The notes below the pieces were generated by a model. That model was given only the letters and a program-made list of their open reading frames with translations, had not been told where the DNA came from and made no database searches. DNA of 64,000 nt, from positions 1-64,000 of the forward strand of contig NZ_JAKNHJ010000003.1 in the NCBI RefSeq assembly GCF_022133705.1, written 5' to 3'. Shown here piece by piece: positions 38,582 to 62,279 of this stretch. Position 1 is the stretch's first letter. Each line of letters begins with the position of its first letter. The DNA comes from Varibaculum cambriense (GTDB taxonomy: Bacteria > Actinomycetota > Actinomycetes > Actinomycetales > Actinomycetaceae). Both the position numbers and the translations under genes were made by a program.

Positions 38582-39421
38582 ATGTCGAAAAATAATGATT
38601 CTCCTCTAAATACAAAAACCGATAATAAAACGTTAAAAATGCTGGATTTTCCCGCCCCCAGTAAAAGGCAATCCCCCTATAGCTCCTGGCAGAATCTAGG
38701 ATTAATTATGCGGCGTTGCTTTTTTGTTTGGGTACATCCGACTACTTTAATTCTATTTACTTTTATCCCGATAGCCTGTTTCTCGATTTTCGGTTTAGGG
38801 CAGGAATACTCGAATATCGATTTAGGGGAAACCACAATTGCCGGATCCATCATGTGCAATATGTGTCAATACTCGGTAGTATTTGTCGCCGCCTGTATCA
38901 CTGCCCGTATCGGCACCGAACAGGCAACCGGCTGGACGCGACAAATCGCCCTCACCCCGATAACTTCCCGGCTGTATGGCACTGGCCGCGTTATCGCGAC
39001 CGCTATTTCTTGCCTGGCAATGACCATTATTACTTACAGTTACGGGTTCGCTACCGGGGTACGCATGAGCGCAAAGGCTCTAATATTATCCCTAGGTGTT
39101 TTAGTAATTTCCGCACTTTTCGGAGCGGTATTTGGATTATTAACAGGTCTGCTCATCCCCTCAGATGCGGCGCAAGGAATAGTTGGAGGCGGCTCGTCAC
39201 TAATCGCTATTTTTTCGGGAATGTTTACTCCTTTAGAACAGATGGGCGCGTTTGTCCAAAAACTGGGTGAGTTTATGCCTATGTGGGGATATAACCAGCT
39301 TTTACAAGCCACATTTAATAATCAAACTATTTTGGGGTGGAAAATCTATTTGAATATGGCAGTGTGGACTGTGCTGCTATTGGGAATAGTGTTAGCGTTA
39401 CTGCAACGAAAAAAGTCGTAG
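38582..39421 (+). CDS. ABC-2-type permease
   Basis: A 279-residue integral membrane protein with six hydrophobic segments, the ABC-2 permease that pairs with the upstream ATPase. Helix regions include LILFTFIPIACFSIFGLG, VISALFGAVFGLLTGLLI and VWTVLLLGIVLALLQRKK, and GWTRQIALTPITSRLYGTGR is a typical cytoplasmic loop of the family. I chose ATG at 38582; ATG at 38537, directly after the ATPase stop, is equally possible. Likely exports a peptide, lipid or antibiotic, giving resistance or secretion. Confidence 0.88.
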   Translation: MSKNNDSPLNTKTDNKTLKMLDFPAPSKRQSPYSSWQNLGLIMRRCFFVWVHPTTLILFTFIPIACFSIFGLGQEYSNIDLGETTIAGSIMCNMCQYSVVFVAACITARIGTEQATGWTRQIALTPITSRLYGTGRVIATAISCLAMTIITYSYGFATGVRMSAKALILSLGVLVISALFGAVFGLLTGLLIPSDAAQGIVGGGSSLIAIFSGMFTPLEQMGAFVQKLGEFMPMWGYNQLLQATFNNQTILGWKIYLNMAVWTVLLLGIVLALLQRKKS

Positions 39422-39490
39422 TTACCGCCTAGAACTTTATCGCCGATAATGCCAGCAAAACTGACTAGCGACTGGTGGAAATGAGGGAAT

Positions 39491-40687
39491 ATGTTAAAAA
39501 ATAGGGACTCTTGGGCTTTCGCTTTCCCTCCCCTACTATTTCTTATTCTGCCCCTTTACTATATGTCGGCAGGATTTCCACAAATCAGTTACCTTGTCGC
39601 TTTCTTTTTGATGGTGCTGTTTGGCGCCTTCTACGTGGCGGCTTGGCTACAAATCCCCTATCGTCCGCGCCGTTTATCCTCGCTTAATATCGCTATTCTA
39701 GCCGGGCTAATCGCCACCTATTTGGGAGGATGGTGGATAGCGGGAATTAACGCCCCGGTAGCCTTTCAAGCTTCCTATCTTTGCTCGGTAGCTATATTTT
39801 TACTGCCTGCTCGTCTTGACTATTACGCATTAGGGATAATTTATCTGCTGACAATGCTGCAAGTAGCTATCTCTCCCTCTATAACCCACTGGTCGGCGGT
39901 GCTGATAACTATCTTTACTTCTTTAGCCTGCTTTGCTGGTCGCAGCTCCGTTGAGGCTGAAAAACGCCGGACGCTGGCGGCAGCTAGTGAAACACAGGCG
40001 GCTAAAATGCGCGAGCGAGCCAGGATTAACGCTGATTTGCATGATGTTTTAGGGCAGACCTTAACGGCTATTTCCTTAAATGCTCAGCTCAGTTCCCGGC
40101 TTTTGGAACAAGGCAGGAATCAGGACGCGGCCTCGGCTCTCCGCACTGTTCAGCTCCTTTCACGACAGGCTCTCGCGGATGTGCGACAGGTGGTTAGCGC
40201 TTCTCGCGAGACTGTAATCGCTGAAGAAATAGAAAATGCACGGGCACTTTGCCAGGCAGCAAATATCACTTTTTCTGTTAGCGCCCTGGATACTATCAAG
40301 CCCGAAATCGAGAATCTGGCTGCTTGGATGATTCGCGAGGGAATCTCTAATCTGGTTCATCATTCCGGCTCCGACAAGGCCTGGCTGCTCTGCACCGCTA
40401 AAAGCGTTTGTTTAATCGATAACGGTAAAGGTTACCAGGAGCTAGTTTCAGATAGTGATAACGCCGGGTCAAGTGGTAACGATGCTACCGGTAATGGTCT
40501 TTGCGGTCTTAAGGACAGAGCCAAAAATCTAGCAGTTATTTCTTACGGTAACCTGTTTAGCTCGGCTTGGGAGCAGCTAATAGCTATAGACCCCGAGATT
40601 TCTACCAGGGCAGATGAGCTGATTTTACCCCCTAAATATCCTCGTAAACGCCCTCATGGATTCTTCCTTGCGCTTTATACTCGCTAG
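39491..40687 (+). CDS. DesK/NarX-type sensor histidine kinase
   Basis: A 398-residue kinase. Five or six N-terminal transmembrane helices (to about residue 150) are followed by HisKA_3 (ERARINADLHDVLGQTLTAI, phosphorylated His in DLHDVLGQ) and a HATPase domain with the N box MIREGISNLVHHSG, VCLIDNGKGY and GNGLCGLKDRAKNL. The ATPase part carries a long C-terminal tail. It is 69 bp after the permease and precedes the regulator. By analogy with LiaS or DesK systems it may sense membrane stress or the transporter's substrate. Confidence 0.9.
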   Translation: MLKNRDSWAFAFPPLLFLILPLYYMSAGFPQISYLVAFFLMVLFGAFYVAAWLQIPYRPRRLSSLNIAILAGLIATYLGGWWIAGINAPVAFQASYLCSVAIFLLPARLDYYALGIIYLLTMLQVAISPSITHWSAVLITIFTSLACFAGRSSVEAEKRRTLAAASETQAAKMRERARINADLHDVLGQTLTAISLNAQLSSRLLEQGRNQDAASALRTVQLLSRQALADVRQVVSASRETVIAEEIENARALCQAANITFSVSALDTIKPEIENLAAWMIREGISNLVHHSGSDKAWLLCTAKSVCLIDNGKGYQELVSDSDNAGSSGNDATGNGLCGLKDRAKNLAVISYGNLFSSAWEQLIAIDPEISTRADELILPPKYPRKRPHGFFLALYTR

Positions 40688-40727
40688 CTTGCGGCGCAGT
40701 TCATTTAAGGCACTCGCCGAAAACCAG

Positions 40728-40736
40728 TCATTTGTC
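40728..40736. promoter_or_regulatory. GACAAATGA-like site before the response regulator
   Basis: TCATTTGTC lies 68 bp before the regulator start. Its complement GACAAATGA overlaps in sequence with the TGACAAA repeats at 37421 and 37444 upstream of the transporter genes. Two such positions suggest a shared site, probably for the NarL-type regulator encoded next door, though a single short match could be chance. Confidence 0.3.
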
Positions 40737-40803
40737 GCTACTGCGAGTGTTGTGCCTGATACTTGTGGTACTTACTCAACTAGCGCTATGGAATAATTAG
40801 AAC

Positions 40804-41424
40804 ATGATTTCGCTAATGCTGGTAGATGACCAAACCCTGGTGCGACAAGCTTTAGCCAGTTTGCTTAGTTTAGAGGACGACCTCAAAGTTTCAGGGCAGG
40901 CTGACAACAACCAGGCAGCGTTACAGCAGCTGCGCGCCCTACAAAATAGTGGACAGGCAGTTGATGTGGCGTTGGTAGATATTGAGATGGGGTCAGATTC
41001 CGGACTGGATTTAACTCGCGAAATCAAACAGGCTTTCCCAGACACAAAAGTACTGATAGTAACGACTTTTGGTCGTCCCGGATATTTAAGCCGGGCACTT
41101 GCGGCAGGAGCTAGCGGTTTTATTGTCAAAGACACCCCCGCGGATCAGCTGGTGAGCATTATTCGCAATATCTATGCGGGAGCTAAACATATTGACCCTA
41201 AATTGGCTGCCGATGCCCTAGCTCAAGGACCTAATCCTTTAACCCCGCGAGAAATCGAGACTCTGAACTGTGCCTTAACTGGGGCTAGTATCGAGCAAAT
41301 AGCGGCTACAGTTTTCCTAGCTCCCGGCACGGTACGTAATATCATTTCCGGTGCAATGACCAAGCTGGGAGCTAAAAGCAGAATCGAAGCTGCTCAAACC
41401 GCTAGCGCCGCCGGTTGGCTATAA
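40804..41424 (+). CDS. NarL/LuxR-family response regulator
   Basis: A 206-residue regulator with receiver (SLMLVDDQTLVRQALASLLS, Asp in DVALVDIEMGSDSGLD, then IVTTFGRPGYL and FIVKDTPADQL) and a LuxR helix-turn-helix (LTPREIETLNCALTGASIEQ, then VFLAPGTVRNIISGAMTKLG). It pairs with the DesK-like kinase 116 bp upstream. Its stop is 2 bp from the convergent YafQ-like toxin stop. Confidence 0.92.
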   Translation: MISLMLVDDQTLVRQALASLLSLEDDLKVSGQADNNQAALQQLRALQNSGQAVDVALVDIEMGSDSGLDLTREIKQAFPDTKVLIVTTFGRPGYLSRALAAGASGFIVKDTPADQLVSIIRNIYAGAKHIDPKLAADALAQGPNPLTPREIETLNCALTGASIEQIAATVFLAPGTVRNIISGAMTKLGAKSRIEAAQTASAAGWL

Positions 41425-41426
41425 TC

Positions 41427-41705
41427 CTACTGCAATAAGTCCGAGTGCGTTCCCGTTCGTGTTAGCGAAAGCTCAATTTGGTTAGAACTAATTTTATATA
41501 TCAGTAGCCAATCAGGGCGGATATGACATTCGCGATGCCCCAACCAGTTTCCCGTTAGTGCGTGATCCTTTAGTGCTTTTGGAAGTGCTTCTCCACCTGC
41601 TAACAGCCGGATAACGTCATCTAGCTCCTCTATGGGAAGCCCACGCCGAATAGCCTGCTTGTAGTCTTTCTTAAACCGGTTAGTCCATTGAATCTGGTAG
41701 CTCAT
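41427..41705 (-). CDS. YafQ-family toxin
   Basis: A 92-residue RelE-superfamily toxin of the YafQ type: SYQIQWTNRFKKDYKQAIRR, ELDDVIRLLAGGEALPKALK, DHALTGNWLGHRECHIRPDW and LLIYKISSNQIELSLTRTGT. The His and Asp residues of HRECHIRPDWLL are those YafQ uses for ribosome-dependent mRNA cleavage. It overlaps the antitoxin stop by 4 bases. Confidence 0.93.
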   Translation of the reverse strand: MSYQIQWTNRFKKDYKQAIRRGLPIEELDDVIRLLAGGEALPKALKDHALTGNWLGHRECHIRPDWLLIYKISSNQIELSLTRTGTHSDLLQ

Positions 41706-41977
41706 GATTTTAGTTCTTTTAACGCCTCTTCGACATCCGAATAGCGTTTTGCATCTGGGTCAGCTAGTAATCTCTCTGCTTCTGCTAGAGCCATCTGGGT
41801 TTGATAGTTGGGCGATTTTTGACGGATTTCAAACGGAAATCCTCCCGCTTGGATAGCCTGACGCAAAAAAATATTAATCGCGGTAGTCATATTAACCCCT
41901 AGATTGCGAAAAATATCTTCGCTTTGCTGCTTAACATCTTTATCCATGCGCACACTGAAACTGGTAGTACCGGACAT
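41702..41977 (-). CDS. RelB/DinJ-family antitoxin
   Basis: A 91-residue DinJ-like antitoxin. It starts SGTTSFSVRMDKDVKQQSED, then LGVNMTTAINIFLRQAIQAG, the diagnostic RHH core, then GFPFEI and a C-terminal part (LAEAERLLADPDAKRYSDVE) that binds the toxin. I chose ATG at 41977, with GAGAGGA upstream, over an earlier in-frame ATG at 41998. It should repress the pair's own promoter; TCTATAATAAGTCTATTAT-like repeats lie just upstream at 42007-42026. Confidence 0.92.
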   Translation of the reverse strand: MSGTTSFSVRMDKDVKQQSEDIFRNLGVNMTTAINIFLRQAIQAGGFPFEIRQKSPNYQTQMALAEAERLLADPDAKRYSDVEEALKELKS

Positions 41978-42176
41978 AGCAAATCCTCTCTCCTGCAATA
42001 AAATACATCTATAATAAGTCTATTATCCAGGCATTAGATATGCAATAGCTAGTTTATTTGTACTATCTGAGGGGTAGGATGAGGGTAAAAATAGTTCCGG
42101 AGGTGGCGCGATCCCTATAATCAGGTATTTTAACTTTGCTGAGGGCGCTCGAAAGTAATACCTGAAACCTAGGAGA

Positions 42177-56811: not shown

Positions 56812-58005
56812 TTATGCCCCCAGCTTTGCCCGCAACTCCCGCGCCATGTCGGCATCTTCCCAGGTGAACCCGGAACGCCCGAAATGCCCGTAGGCGGCGG
56901 TACGCGAATAGATAGGTCGGCGCAGCGAAAGGCGGTCGATAATAGCTGCCGGTCGCAAGTCGAAAGTTTCCCGGACTGCCTGCAAAATCTGGGTCTTATC
57001 CGCTTTTTCGGTGCCGAAGGTTTCCAGTTCTATCGACACCGGGTGCGCCGAGCCAATAGCGTAAGCCACCTGCAGTTCCGCCCGATCCGCAAGGCCGGCC
57101 GCCACCACGTTCTTGGCTACCCACCTGGCAGCATAGGCCGCGGAGCGATCAACTTTAGAAGCATCTTTTCCAGAGAACGCGCCTCCGCCGTGGCGCGCCA
57201 TCCCCCCGTAGGTGTCGACGATCAGTTTGCGACCGGTAACGCCAGTATCAGCGGCCGGGCCTCCTAAGATAAAGCGTCCCGCCGGGTTTACCAGGGTGCG
57301 GAAATCGCTGTCCTCGATCCAAGGCACCTGAGCGATAACTGGGTCAATCACCGCGGATTTTACTTCTTCACGCAGGTCTTTGAGGCTGACGGATGCTAGA
57401 TGCTGAGTCGAAAGCACGATGGTGTCTAGCCCTACTGGGCGCCCGTCCTCATAACGTACGGTTACCTGGGTTTTTCCATCGGGGCACAGGTAGTCGAGGA
57501 TTTTTTCCCGCCGTACTTTTTCGAGCTGCTTCGCTAAGCGGTGTGCCAGCCAGATCGGGGCGGGCATTAAATCAGGGGTTTCGTTGCAGGCGTAGCCGAA
57601 CATCATCCCTTGGTCGCCGGCCCCCTGCTGGTCAAAAGCATCTACTGCCGACCCTTCGCGGGTTTCCCACGAGTCTTGCACTCCTTGAGCAATGTCGGGG
57701 CTCTGGCGGTCGATAGATACCAGCACTCCGCAAGAATCTCCATCGAAACCGATATCAGAGGAGGTGTAGCCGATTTCGTTAATGGTTTCGCGCACCAGGG
57801 TTTGCAGGTCTACATATCCGGAAGTGGTGATTTCGCCGGCCAGATGTACCTGCCCGGTGGTCGCCATGACTTCCACGGCAGACCGGGCTTCTGGGTCTTG
57901 TTCTAGCAGGGCATCGACTATGGAGTCGGCAATGCGGTCACAGACTTTATCGGGGTGACCACTGGTTACGGATTCAGAAGTAAAAATCGACTGCTTTGGG
58001 CTCAT
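56812..58005 (-). CDS. metK: S-adenosylmethionine synthetase
   Basis: A 397-residue MetK that makes SAM from ATP and methionine. It has [20 protein letters not shown] (ATP and Mg site), [20 protein letters not shown] (substrate loop hexapeptide GAGDQG) and [20 protein letters not shown] (P loop). Full length. No partner gene lies close on the same strand; the TA pair is upstream. Confidence 0.97.
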
Positions 58006-58070: not shown

Positions 58071-58334
58071 TCAGAAGTCACCATAATGGGTTCCACACTG
58101 CACTATACGCAACACCTCGCCATCGATTTTGAACACCAGCCGATTTTTTTCATCGATGCGAACGCTCCAGTATCCAGAAAGATCTCCCCGCAAAGGTTCA
58201 GGTTTACCTATGCATTTGTACCCGTTACGGTCAATTGACTGTATCAACTTCAATATTCGTCTCACAGTTTTCTTGTCTTGTTTCAACCAATACTGAAATT
58301 CTTCCCAAGAATAATCTGTCCAAGCCTTAATCAC
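58071..58334 (-). CDS. YoeB-family toxin
   Basis: An 87-residue Txe/YoeB toxin: [60 protein letters not shown], and KNRLVFKI with the C-terminal CGTHYGDF. The Glu, Arg and C-terminal His-Tyr residues are those used to cut ribosome-bound mRNA after the start codon. It overlaps the antitoxin by 8 bases. YoeB normally pairs with YefM (Phd type); here its partner is DinJ-like. Confidence 0.93.
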
Positions 58335-58584
58335 CGGGCAAAACCTCGTGAATGGTACCGCCAGTTTGTTCCATTTGGGCTATTGAACTGCGCAAACGCT
58401 TCATATTTGATTCTGAATAGAACGGGTCAATAGCCACCTCGAACGGGATCCGCTTCTCCCGCACGACCTTTGCTGCAAACATGGTGTAGGCGCTGGTAGC
58501 TGTAAGCCCCAGTTCTTTACACGTGGCTTCAAGCGATTTTTTCAAGCTCGCGTCCATCCGAAAGTTAACAGTTGCTTGCGCCAT
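58327..58584 (-). CDS. RelB/DinJ-family antitoxin paired with a YoeB-like toxin
   Basis: An 85-residue RHH antitoxin: AQATVNFRMDASLKKSLEAT, CKELGLTATSAYTMFAAKVV and REKRIPFEVAIDPFYSE, the standard RelB/DinJ layout, with an acidic C-terminal helix. It overlaps the toxin gene by 8 bases. Upstream on the minus strand, CTCTAG and CTAGAG (about 58609-58635) form an inverted repeat that could be its operator. Confidence 0.9.
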   Translation of the reverse strand: MAQATVNFRMDASLKKSLEATCKELGLTATSAYTMFAAKVVREKRIPFEVAIDPFYSESNMKRLRSSIAQMEQTGGTIHEVLPGD

Positions 58585-58748: not shown

Positions 58749-58937
58749 GGGAGGGCAATTTTGTCGCCTTACCCGCACCGGAGGGTGCTTTTGTGTCGGG
58801 AGGGCAATTTTGTCTGTGGAGGGCGATTCTGCACACCCCCACAAGCCACTACAGGCACAACGCAGACAGTTCCACCCTCCCGCGACAATAACGCCCTCCC
58901 GCGACATTTCCACCCTCCTAGGACGCTTCCACCCTCC
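58749..58937. repeat. Bidirectional array of a 16-mer, GAC-N7-CCCTCC
   Basis: Four copies read on the plus strand as GGAGGG-N7-GTC or close (58749-58766, 58780-58797, 58798-58816, 58818-58834). Four copies of the complementary form GAC-N7-CCCTCC lie at 58865-58880, 58884-58899, 58903-58918 and 58922-58937, with an exact 19-bp period. The two half-arrays face each other across about 30 bp. All copies keep the ends and vary in the middle. The last copy carries GACGCTTC, the motif also tandemly repeated at 42-70. No CDS covers the array; frames through it are repeats read as protein. Confidence 0.8.
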
Positions 58938-59725: not shown

Positions 59726-59804
59726 TTGCGTTGCAACGAAAAGTGCAACGCAAAATAAAACCTTGCAACGCAAATACAACGAAACCATTTGCGTTGCATT
59801 TGCG
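59726..59804. repeat. Left 79-bp palindromic direct repeat of the AlbA_2 gene
   Basis: Identical in length to 61285-61363 and matching it at 71 of 79 positions; six of the eight differences fall in one 7-nt spacer. It holds two hairpins: TTGCGTTGCA with TGCAACGCAA (loop ACGAAAAG), and TGCAACGCAAAT with ATTTGCGTTGCA (loop 11 nt). The unit GCGTTGCA therefore occurs four times in alternating orientation. The right end overlaps the -35 box of the AlbA_2 gene promoter, so it is well placed to be an operator. Confidence 0.9.
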
Positions 59805-59840
59805 TTGCCCTAGCGCTACAATAAGCTGCAAAAAGGGGAG
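59794..59840 (+). promoter_or_regulatory. Promoter and ribosome site of the AlbA_2 gene
   Basis: -35 box TTGCAT (59794-59799), spacer of exactly 17 bp, -10 box TACAAT (59817-59822), and ribosome site GGGGAG (59835-59840) 6 bases before ATG 59847. The -35 box lies inside the right arm of the palindromic repeat, so a protein bound there would block RNA polymerase. Confidence 0.7.
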
Positions 59841-59846
59841 TCAACG

Positions 59847-61097
59847 ATGAGAGAATCCGCGTTCTTGGAGTTCAAGTCCAAAGTGAGCAACACATTTCTC
59901 AAGACTGTAAGCGCCTACGCGAACTTTCATGACGGGGAAATACTGTTTGGAATCGATGATGCGGGAAACGCGGTTGGCCTAGACCACCTAGAAGAAACGT
60001 GCCTGGCAATCGAAAATCGCATTAACGACTGCATTACCCCACGCCCCAGATTCTCTATCCAAATAAATCAGGACGACAAAACCATCTGTCTTCACGTGCA
60101 GGAAGGCTCTAACAAACCCTATCTTTACAATGGGAAAGCCTACCGCAGGAGTGACAGCTCCACTGTCGAAGTGGATAGAGTTGAACTCAGCCGCTTGGTA
60201 TTGGAGGGAGAAAACCTCTCCTTCGAAGAACTTGACTCCCCCGAGAAAAATCTTCAGTTTAAAACTTTATCCGCAGCTCTTCGCGACCAGCTAGATATTT
60301 CGGATACCAGCACCGATGTGCTCAAGACCTTGGGGTTAATCGGACCGAATGGTTTCAACCGTGCCGCCGCCCTATTGGCCGATAAGAATAGCTATCCCGG
60401 AATCGATGTCATCAAGTTTGGAGCCTCTATTAATGAAATACTGGATCGCACCACTGTTGAACAGGTTTCTGTTTTGAAGCAGCTGGACACCGCGATGGAG
60501 GTTTTCGACCGCTACCTGCGTCTTGAGGAGATTGAGGGCGCAACCAGAACCACCAAAGAGCTGGTGCCGCGCGAAGCTTTCCGAGAGGCGATCGCTAACG
60601 GTCTGGTTCATCGAACTTGGGATATTAATTCGCGCTTACGGGTCAGCATTTTCCCTGACTGCGTGGAGGTTTACTCTCCAGGAGGACTTCCCACTGGGCT
60701 TTCCGAAGCAGAATATTTACGAGGACGAGTATCAGTTCTCAGAAATCCAATCCTGGCAGAGGTCTTCTTCCGTCTGGGACTTATTGAAAAGTTCGGCACC
60801 GGTATTCTGCGCATTCGAGAGTCTTATCGTGGCCAAACAGAGATTCCGAAATTTGAGGTTCTGGACAACTCCATCACGATTACTTTGCCTTTTATCGGTT
60901 CGCGTCAGCAGCTGAACTCGCAGGAAAAGATGCTTTTAAATTCCATGGCGCGAGGCAGAAGATATTCGCGCTCCGAGCTTGATATCAGCTCGGGATTCGA
61001 AAAAACCAAAACCCTTCGCCTACTAAATTCCCTGGTAAGCAAGCAGTTAGTCCTAGCTCATGGGGAAAGCAGAGCCCGGCGTTACTCGCGTCTTTAG
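59847..61097 (+). CDS. AlbA_2 (Schlafen-like) DNA-binding and ATPase-type protein
   Basis: A 416-residue protein. Residues about 1-120 match the AlbA_2 domain (ESAFLEFKSKVSNTFLKTVS, then AYANFHDGEILFGIDDAGNA, later KPYLYNGKAYRRSDSS). Residues about 230-350 match HATPase_c_4 (PREAFREAIANGLVHRTWD, FPDCVEVYSPGGLPTGL, then LGLIEKFGTGILRIRE). The C-terminus (SRSELDISSGFEKTKTLRLL) looks like a winged helix. Proteins of this type are annotated as ATP-binding transcriptional regulators or RecG-like; some act in phage defence islands. It stands alone, bracketed by two 79-bp palindromic repeats. Autoregulation through these repeats is my inference. Confidence 0.88.
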   Translation: MRESAFLEFKSKVSNTFLKTVSAYANFHDGEILFGIDDAGNAVGLDHLEETCLAIENRINDCITPRPRFSIQINQDDKTICLHVQEGSNKPYLYNGKAYRRSDSSTVEVDRVELSRLVLEGENLSFEELDSPEKNLQFKTLSAALRDQLDISDTSTDVLKTLGLIGPNGFNRAAALLADKNSYPGIDVIKFGASINEILDRTTVEQVSVLKQLDTAMEVFDRYLRLEEIEGATRTTKELVPREAFREAIANGLVHRTWDINSRLRVSIFPDCVEVYSPGGLPTGLSEAEYLRGRVSVLRNPILAEVFFRLGLIEKFGTGILRIRESYRGQTEIPKFEVLDNSITITLPFIGSRQQLNSQEKMLLNSMARGRRYSRSELDISSGFEKTKTLRLLNSLVSKQLVLAHGESRARRYSRL

Positions 61098-61284
61098 CCG
61101 AAACGTTGTGTGGATGAGGGCGCTGCAAGAATTCGTGCGAACCGCAGACAAGGACGCGGATGAGGGCGCAGTCAAAGGCACGTTCAGCAACCGACAGTAT
61201 TACTCCCCTGCCCTTCTTCTGGACTGCACCCCAGATACCGGAACCTCGACGGACAGAGATTAGCAATAGAAAAAGCGCACCGTT

Positions 61285-61363
61285 TTGCGTTGCAACGAAA
61301 AGTGCAACGCAAAAATTAGGGTTGCAACGCAAATGCAACGAACCCATTTGCGTTGCATTTGCG
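61285..61363. repeat. Right 79-bp palindromic direct repeat of the AlbA_2 gene
   Basis: The second copy, in the same orientation as 59726-59804 and 90% identical. Hairpins: TTGCGTTGCA with TGCAACGCAA, and a perfect 13-bp pair TGCAACGCAAATG with CATTTGCGTTGCA (loop 9 nt). It ends 10 bp before the uspA stop. On the minus strand the 13-bp hairpin is followed by ACCCTAATTTTT, so it may also terminate uspA. The 1.56-kb unit between the repeats could be lost or circularised by recombination. Confidence 0.9.
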
Positions 61364-61373
61364 CGGTAACCGT

Positions 61374-62279
61374 TTAGTTTTTGGCGGCAGATTCACGTTC
61401 GCCAGTGGGTACTACCAGCACTGGGCAGGCCGCATGAGCCAGCACGGATTGCGAGGTGGAACCCATTAGTGCCCCTGTGAAACCGCCGCCTCCGCGAGTA
61501 CCTACCACCACCAGGTCAACGGCGGTGGAAAACTCTGTCAGCAACGCCGCCGGGTTCCCATCCAAAGCATGAGAATGTACTTTCACTCCACTATCAGCGG
61601 TTTCTTCCTTACAGGTTTGTTTAAGCCCGTCACGCACATCCCGCAAGATGCTGTCACGATCGACCGTGGCCGGCAACCAGGAAAGGATCCCGGCGGATGA
61701 TGCCAGGGGAACCGCATCCACGGCAGTCAGTTCCGCGCCCCATACTTGGGCTTCTTTGATGGAGCGGCGCAGGGATTTGCGAGAACGCGTGGAACCGTCA
61801 AATCCGATCACGATTTTCTTTACCGGCACGAATTGGTCATCCGTTTTCCGCCGAGGCACTACCACGACTGGACATCGAGAGTAGGCCGGCAAAGCCGAGG
61901 AGGTTGCCCCCAACAACCGGTCAGTGAACCCGCCGCCTCCGCGGGTGCCGACCACAATCAAATCGACTTGCTGCGACAGTTGCACCAAAATCGCGGTGGG
62001 GTCTCCGGCTTCCACCCGCCCTTCGGCCTGGTAGCCGCGTTTTTTAAGGTGCGCTACAGCTTCGTCTACTACGGTTTGCGCGCTTTCGCGAATCGCATCA
62101 TTGTCTACTACCGCGAATCCGGAATCCATGGACGCTGCCGTATAAGAGGGCAGCGCATAGGCACATAATACTTGCAGTTTCCCGCCGCTTTGCTTAGCGC
62201 GCGCGCCCGCCCATTCCGCGGCCTCTAGGGACTCTGGGGAGCCGTCAACCCCCACTAAGATAGTTTCTGTTCCCGACAT
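61374..62279 (-). CDS. Universal stress protein, two tandem Usp domains
   Basis: A 301-residue protein with two UspA domains (about 1-145 and 155-295). Each starts with a nucleotide strand (ILVGVDGSPESLEAAEWAGA; KIVIGFDGSTRSRKSLRRSI) and ends with the ATP motif G-2x-G-9x-GST type (VVGTRGGGGFTDRLLGATSS; VVGTRGGGGFTGALMGSTSQ). Two-domain Usp proteins of this layout are common in actinobacteria under hypoxia or starvation. AAGGGGGAC precedes the ATG. Its 3' end abuts the right palindromic repeat. Confidence 0.94.
   Translation of the reverse strand: MSGTETILVGVDGSPESLEAAEWAGARAKQSGGKLQVLCAYALPSYTAASMDSGFAVVDNDAIRESAQTVVDEAVAHLKKRGYQAEGRVEAGDPTAILVQLSQQVDLIVVGTRGGGGFTDRLLGATSSALPAYSRCPVVVVPRRKTDDQFVPVKKIVIGFDGSTRSRKSLRRSIKEAQVWGAELTAVDAVPLASSAGILSWLPATVDRDSILRDVRDGLKQTCKEETADSGVKVHSHALDGNPAALLTEFSTAVDLVVVGTRGGGGFTGALMGSTSQSVLAHAACPVLVVPTGERESAAKN

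Follow-up and report, generated by a model that had tools for sequence, protein, structure and literature searches.

We analyzed a 64,000-nt stretch of a Varibaculum cambriense contig (hereafter, the window), in which metK (56812–58005) is followed by a YoeB/RelB toxin-antitoxin pair recognized by family matches (58071–58584, minus strand), a Schlafen-type gene (59847–61097, plus strand), a convergent gene for a universal stress protein (usp; 61374–62279, minus strand), and a class C sortase gene. The Schlafen-type gene encodes a 416-amino-acid protein and is preceded by a Shine-Dalgarno-like AGGGGAG (59834–59840, plus strand), as read from the sequence. In the intergenic DNA upstream of it, at 58750–58899, we also noted a GGAGGGTGA/TCACCCTCC-type repeat family, which recurs near the locus in two other species of the genus (referred to below as G003 and G004); in G004, a repeat of this type is found downstream of the Schlafen gene as well.

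The gene lies between two 79-bp repeats in direct orientation, i.e., a left copy (L; 59726–59804) and a right copy (R; 61285–61363, plus strand) situated just 3' of usp. This bracketing had been pointed out in a preliminary description of the sequence, and our alignment confirmed both the match between the copies (71 of 79 positions) and the concentration of six of their eight differences (59756–59758, 59760–59762, 59776, and 59784) in a single 7-nt spacer. The longest stretch identical in both copies spans 30 nt (59726–59755) and corresponds to the first of two imperfect palindromes in L, the second being located at 59763–59804; an inverted repeat with arms at 59765–59784 and 59789–59808 lies within and over the end of L. 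A repeat search extended the pair to 108 nt at 81% identity, and outside the 79-bp cores the agreement falls to 16 of 30 positions on the left and 10 of 40 on the right. The 8-mer GCGTTGCA occurs nine times in the window, with eight of these occurrences inside the repeats (100 shuffles: mean, 2.73; nine reached once). As described previously, each repeat holds it four times; its orientation follows the order +,-,-,+ in L and in R alike, and not the strict alternation that had been reported.

That only one gene separates the copies also held, in the sense that 59847–61097 is followed by 187 nt without a convincing gene between its stop codon and R (61098–61284); small overlapping open reading frames (ORFs) are present as well. 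No recombinase was recognized between L and R in the ORF list and the family scan.

The protein belongs by its domains to a described Schlafen type

Pfam identified an SLFN_AlbA_2 domain (PF04326; E = 2e-17, 64.2 bits against a cut-off of 25.3) followed by HATPase_c_4 (PF13749), a GHKL/histidine-kinase-like ATPase domain (E = 4e-17, 62.4 bits against a cut-off of 26). No Pfam family covers the C-terminal region; there, a profile built from six homologues (positions ~337–412) matches MarR-type winged helices with E values from 0.0018 to 0.28, the best being 4ija (0.0018) and 3oop (0.0042). The same profile revealed that the best solved relative of the mid-protein and GHKL-type part is the uncharacterized protein 3lmm (E = 3.5e-16), which we take to be Corynebacterium DIP1874 and whose AlbA_2 part is matched only marginally. 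At its N terminus, the profile matches mammalian Schlafens. More specifically, E3, E8, and D38 align with residues 218, 223, and 261 of rat SLFN13 (5yd0_A; E = 7.3e-05), and all three are invariant in both homologue alignments that cover them (6/6 in A1 and 7/7 in A3). According to the available excerpt of the report on SLFN13, a mammalian tRNA/rRNA endoribonuclease, residues E205, E210, and D248 form a putative active site tested by mutation (PMC5862951). We equate E3/E8/D38 with this triad because the spacing is equal, the numbering offset of 13 being deduced from that spacing. The similarity is weak at the E value given, and the bacterial protein has one short AlbA_2 lobe in place of the pseudo-dimer of SLFN13.

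On its domain content, the protein is thus best placed in an already described bacterial Schlafen type that combines an RNase-type AlbA_2 domain, a GHKL-type ATPase, and a winged helix, and it has the same domain order as the bacterial Schlafen RNase–minimal histidine kinase–wHTH type (SLFN_AlbA_2, GHKL-type, winged helix). RNase activity and a role in phage defense would be expected by analogy. The surroundings at two homologue loci are also similar to those of the described type, since they include defense or prophage genes: one homologue (L071) adjoins a type I specificity-domain gene and a methylase-like gene (the latter match being below the cut-off), and another (L070) adjoins holin and amidase genes. 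Unlike in the BREX-linked comparison available for that type, the gene studied here stands alone and adjoins a toxin-antitoxin pair. At two further loci (L058 and L028), no defense or prophage neighbors were found among the scanned genes, which encode tetrapyrrole methylases and a DUF3866 protein.

Homologues are sparse. They were found in 4 of 213 genomes of the taxonomic family and in 1 of 394 in a sample of the class, this one being the genome under study; relatives at ~40 to 50% identity come from a Fusobacterium record, a gut phage-labelled scaffold, a Clostridia metagenome-assembled genome, and two IMG/VR contigs. In the homologue on the gut phage-labelled scaffold (L059:2231–3475), codon 5 is an in-frame TGA, and the rest of the frame is uninterrupted; the start may lie further on, the gene may have decayed, or the sequence may contain an error. 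Assignment to a named defense system was rejected, as PADLOC returned only weak argonaute-associated matches (best, 7.2e-09), and a PHROGs match to phrog_12156, labelled DNA helicase, was likewise set aside. NCBIfam returned no match for the protein.

The left repeat is a candidate operator

The promoter that we propose for the Schlafen gene (59794–59822, plus strand) consists of a -35 box TTGCAT (59794–59799), a 17-nt spacer, and a -10 box TACAAT (59817–59822). Its -35 box has three of the six consensus bases, and the promoter is absent from a consensus promoter scan at the threshold of that scan; both the hexamer and the spacing are shared by the homologues in G004 and in a further genome, G183. 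L had been described as ending inside the -35 box. With the boxes assigned as above, the -35 lies wholly inside L, and the repeat ends in the spacer between -35 and -10.

We compared the best inverted repeat in the 140 nt upstream of the gene with those of 150 dinucleotide shuffles at nine homologue loci, i.e., those of the studied genome (G000), G004, G183, G044, L058, L059, L015, L070, and L071. At five of them (G000, G004, G183, G044, and L071), the score was reached by none of the 150 shuffles, and at all five the assigned -35 lies within the right arm, 17 nt before the -10. The inverted repeats at L058 (145/150 shuffles), L059 (43/150), and L070 (32/150) were not significant. At L015, the best one (3/150) is located ~76 nt upstream of the start, off the promoter, and is probably the terminator of the preceding gene. 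A paralogue in the studied genome (L010; 32% identity) also has no significant inverted repeat (10/150). The half-sites drift, being of the GTTGCAT type in G000, G004, and G183, of the AACGTAAA type in G044, and of the ATCGTA type in L071. The inverted repeat over the -35 is in register in G004 and G183, whose proteins are 86% and 67% identical to that of G000, respectively, as well as in G044 and L071 with their differing half-sites.

The half-site pair GCGTTGCA-N{4,45}-TGCAACGC is confined to L and R in the studied genome; therefore, no wider regulon is visible by that pattern. Outside the genus, the pair occurs at chance level (7 of 200 genomes, as against 7 of 200 with a reversed control pattern), and no relative of the Schlafen protein was found at the loci where it occurs (L016 to L022).

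Collectively, these data make it most likely that L is the gene's own operator, at which the Schlafen protein would bind and repress its own transcription. A palindromic operator over their own promoter is well known for autoregulated toxin-antitoxin and restriction-controller genes, and the locus shares this feature with both. It differs from them in that one protein would serve as effector and repressor and in having a further copy of the operator past the 3' end of the gene. For the described bacterial Schlafen type, the available excerpts make no mention of autoregulation, an operator, or an inverted repeat. The suggestion in the preliminary description of a regulator with an operator at both ends of its gene accordingly stands for the left end, given the conserved inverted repeat over the -35 and the MarR-type C terminus. 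At the right end it does not carry over to the homologues: when we searched the 1,000 nt past each homologue gene for a copy of its own upstream region, we found one at only one of the nine loci, that of the studied genome, and we placed no -10 box after R.

Strong copies of the repeat lie at one locus

Strong copies of the repeat occur at one locus only in the studied genome as well as in two other species of the genus (G001 and G002), and G005 has one further match of 22 nt (E = 0.003) besides its locus copy. No match to the 79-bp repeat was found in phage sequences, and a plasmid match of 31 nt at E = 0.9 was taken as noise. In viral contigs, the 17-mer TTTGCGTTGCATTTGCG was found in two stretches (L072 and L073), which encode no detectable relative of the Schlafen protein. 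We also rejected a genome-wide REP-like element: TTTGCGTTGCA occurs 11 times in the studied genome, 7 of them at the locus; of the 4 copies elsewhere, all but 1 fall within ORFs of 80 codons or more. Repeats scattered over the genome away from the gene, which the preliminary description had named as a refuting result, were not seen. Solo copies do stand without the gene, and all of them are at this locus.

Related species carry the locus with a single repeat or none

We compared the locus in five congeners (G001 to G005, one genome per species), all of which have usp as its right-hand anchor. G004 has the toxin-antitoxin pair and the Schlafen gene with its upstream operator only, which lacks the first palindrome (59726–59755), and there is no right copy. 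In G002 and G005, the gene is absent, a yoeB remnant is present, and a single full repeat remains that is identical to L and R at 70 and 71 of 79 positions in G002 and at 67 and 70 in G005; its left flank resembles the left flank of L, and its right flank the right flank of R. G001 has no gene, no detected toxin-antitoxin pair, and a shortened repeat. G003 has the toxin-antitoxin pair and no gene, and the repeat search gave no match there. Analysis with tblastn found no Schlafen remnant in the gene-less loci (L049, L050, L051, and L053). The clean empty site that had been proposed as a check was therefore found in gene-less relatives, with one full repeat in G002 and G005 and a shortened one in G001.

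Two further differences among the species were observed. The YoeB/RelB pair is whole in G003 (98% amino acid identity) and G004 (93%), and the yoeB remnants in G002 and G005 are 3' pieces of 29 to 30 residues with near-identical break points. In addition, R nearly touches the usp stop in the studied genome (61364–61400), whereas ~90 to 200 nt more separate the two in G001, G002, and G005; the shorter gap perhaps arose by deletion between similar GGCG-CAGATTC stretches.

The exact one-repeat, gene-less sites in G002 and G005 would also be left by a mobile cassette, in which the gene together with one repeat inserts into a solo repeat serving as attachment site and leaves again, perhaps aided by its protein. 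The patchy occurrence of homologues in the family and class samples, in Fusobacterium, and on gut phage-labelled contigs suits such an element, as does the 5' end of the unit between the -35 and the -10, by virtue of which the repeat would be kept upon excision. However, the orthologue in G004 occupies this locus with no right repeat, an outcome that the preliminary description had itself named as refuting; the missing downstream copies at eight of nine homologue loci, the single locus with strong copies in each congener that carries the repeat (apart from the 22-nt match in G005), the 10% difference between L and R, and the lack of a recognized recombinase between them all argue against it. 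We therefore regard the self-bounded mobile cassette of the preliminary description as quite unlikely; an empty one-repeat site, as expected of such an element, was observed, but flanking pairs around homologues and copies at several genomic loci were not.

Alternatively, R and the solo copies may be retained, regardless of the Schlafen gene, because they serve the convergent usp as a transcription terminator or 3' hairpin. Read on the usp strand, R forms two hairpins (z = -4.47, 0/200 shuffles), the solo copies of G002 (z = -2.98) and G005 (z = -3.37) also fold well (1/200 shuffles each), the shortened copy of G001 reaches -1.89, and one terminator-like site is listed at R. Yet such sites are no more common than in shuffles (2 found against a mean of 2.4), L folds better still on the other strand (z = -6.46), the copy is further from usp in G001, G002, and G005 than in G000, and G003 and G004 have usp without such a copy beside it. 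As a full account this is doubtful, although a role as a usp 3' hairpin might favor the retention of solo copies once the gene has gone.

Loss of the gene is favored over gain

A crossover joining the two repeats would yield sites of the form seen in the solo copies, and loss of the gene by such recombination appears more likely than its gain, since G004 has an orthologue at this very locus. A solo operator would be a natural relic of such loss. The yoeB remnants in G002 and G005 indicate that the locus has lost genes. The repeat pair need not be young, because L and R differ from each other (8/79) about as much as either differs from the solo copies (8 to 12/79). The four cores (L, R, G002, and G005) are related in a nearly star-like manner, with 67 to 71 of 79 positions identical in the six pairs, and are thus compatible with different ages and directions of the duplication. 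At two sites, L and R share a state set against the solo copies (ACGAAAAG versus ACGC/ATGCAAAG, and CATTTG versus CA/TACTTG); an old duplication would account for this no better than a more recent one or gene conversion.

Trees of the two anchoring genes disagree. The metK tree groups the four gene-less genomes (support, 100) and joins G000 with G004 (100), in conflict with the usp tree, which places G000 with G001 and G002 (84); gain by transfer of the locus is therefore possible. Along most of the region the closest genome is G001, which indicates that the locus has been reshuffled between species. Consistent with an interspecies mosaic, G000 and G004 share 92.6% identity in metK and only 73% in usp, 3.4 kb away. 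Elsewhere in the window, a block of 3,464 nt at 38649–42112 shares 98.8% identity with G003, and a 1,574-nt part of it shares 96.8% with G004; the DNA flanking it is ~80% identical, and the block is unaligned in the compared stretches of G001, G002, and G005. Judging from these identities, it is a recently exchanged block with genes for an ABC transporter, a histidine kinase, and a response regulator.

These relationships bear on an alternative history in which the gene-less state is the older one and G000 acquired the allele with the gene from a relative of G004 through homologous recombination. The contrast between metK and usp in their identity to G004, the fully supported pairing of G000 with G004 in the metK tree, and the two states shared by L and R against the solo copies are all in keeping with such an allelic transfer. 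Against it, the G004 allele has neither the right repeat nor the left palindrome at 59726–59755, the Schlafen gene is 80.6% identical to that of G004, a value in line with the remainder of the region, and a solo operator without a gene is difficult to account for as the ancestral condition. We consider this history unlikely.

Discussion

We propose, with a probability of about 0.58, that the locus comprises a self-repressed Schlafen gene whose operator was duplicated behind it and that in relatives the gene was deleted by recombination between the two copies. This proposal is built on observations of the repeats and of the protein's domains, on the inverted repeat that covers the proposed promoter, and on the solo copies with matching flanks and the gene in G004, from which we infer loss rather than gain of the gene. 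The Schlafen protein would probably be a dormant, phage-related defense effector and its own transcriptional repressor, with the winged helix (or the AlbA_2 domain) binding the inverted TTTGCGTTGCA half-sites of L and thereby blocking the -35 box. Duplication of the operator to the far side of the gene would have taken place in an ancestor of part of the genus; as the copies are direct repeats, ordinary homologous recombination could then delete the gene, and the single hybrid repeat in G001, G002, and G005 would be its scar.

A more elaborate version, in which the protein bridges both operators and loops its own gene into silence, with the pair providing a route for disposal of the gene when the RNase misfires and a scar that can regain the gene by recombination with incoming DNA, strikes us as improbable. 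Under the simpler proposal of self-repression followed by deletion, the parts are known and the layout is unusual: a Schlafen-type gene, its probable self-operator, a duplicate of that operator behind the gene, and single-operator sites in sister species.

The locus bears on how bacterial Schlafens, which have been linked to phage defense, are kept silent. Self-repression is what the palindrome conserved over the promoter of the gene predicts, and the palindrome marks the site at which it would act. The solo sites, in turn, would offer a natural picture of the one-step loss of a potentially self-harming defense gene after duplication of its operator, and the locus may represent a natural example of a defense-type gene rendered disposable by a second copy of its operator.
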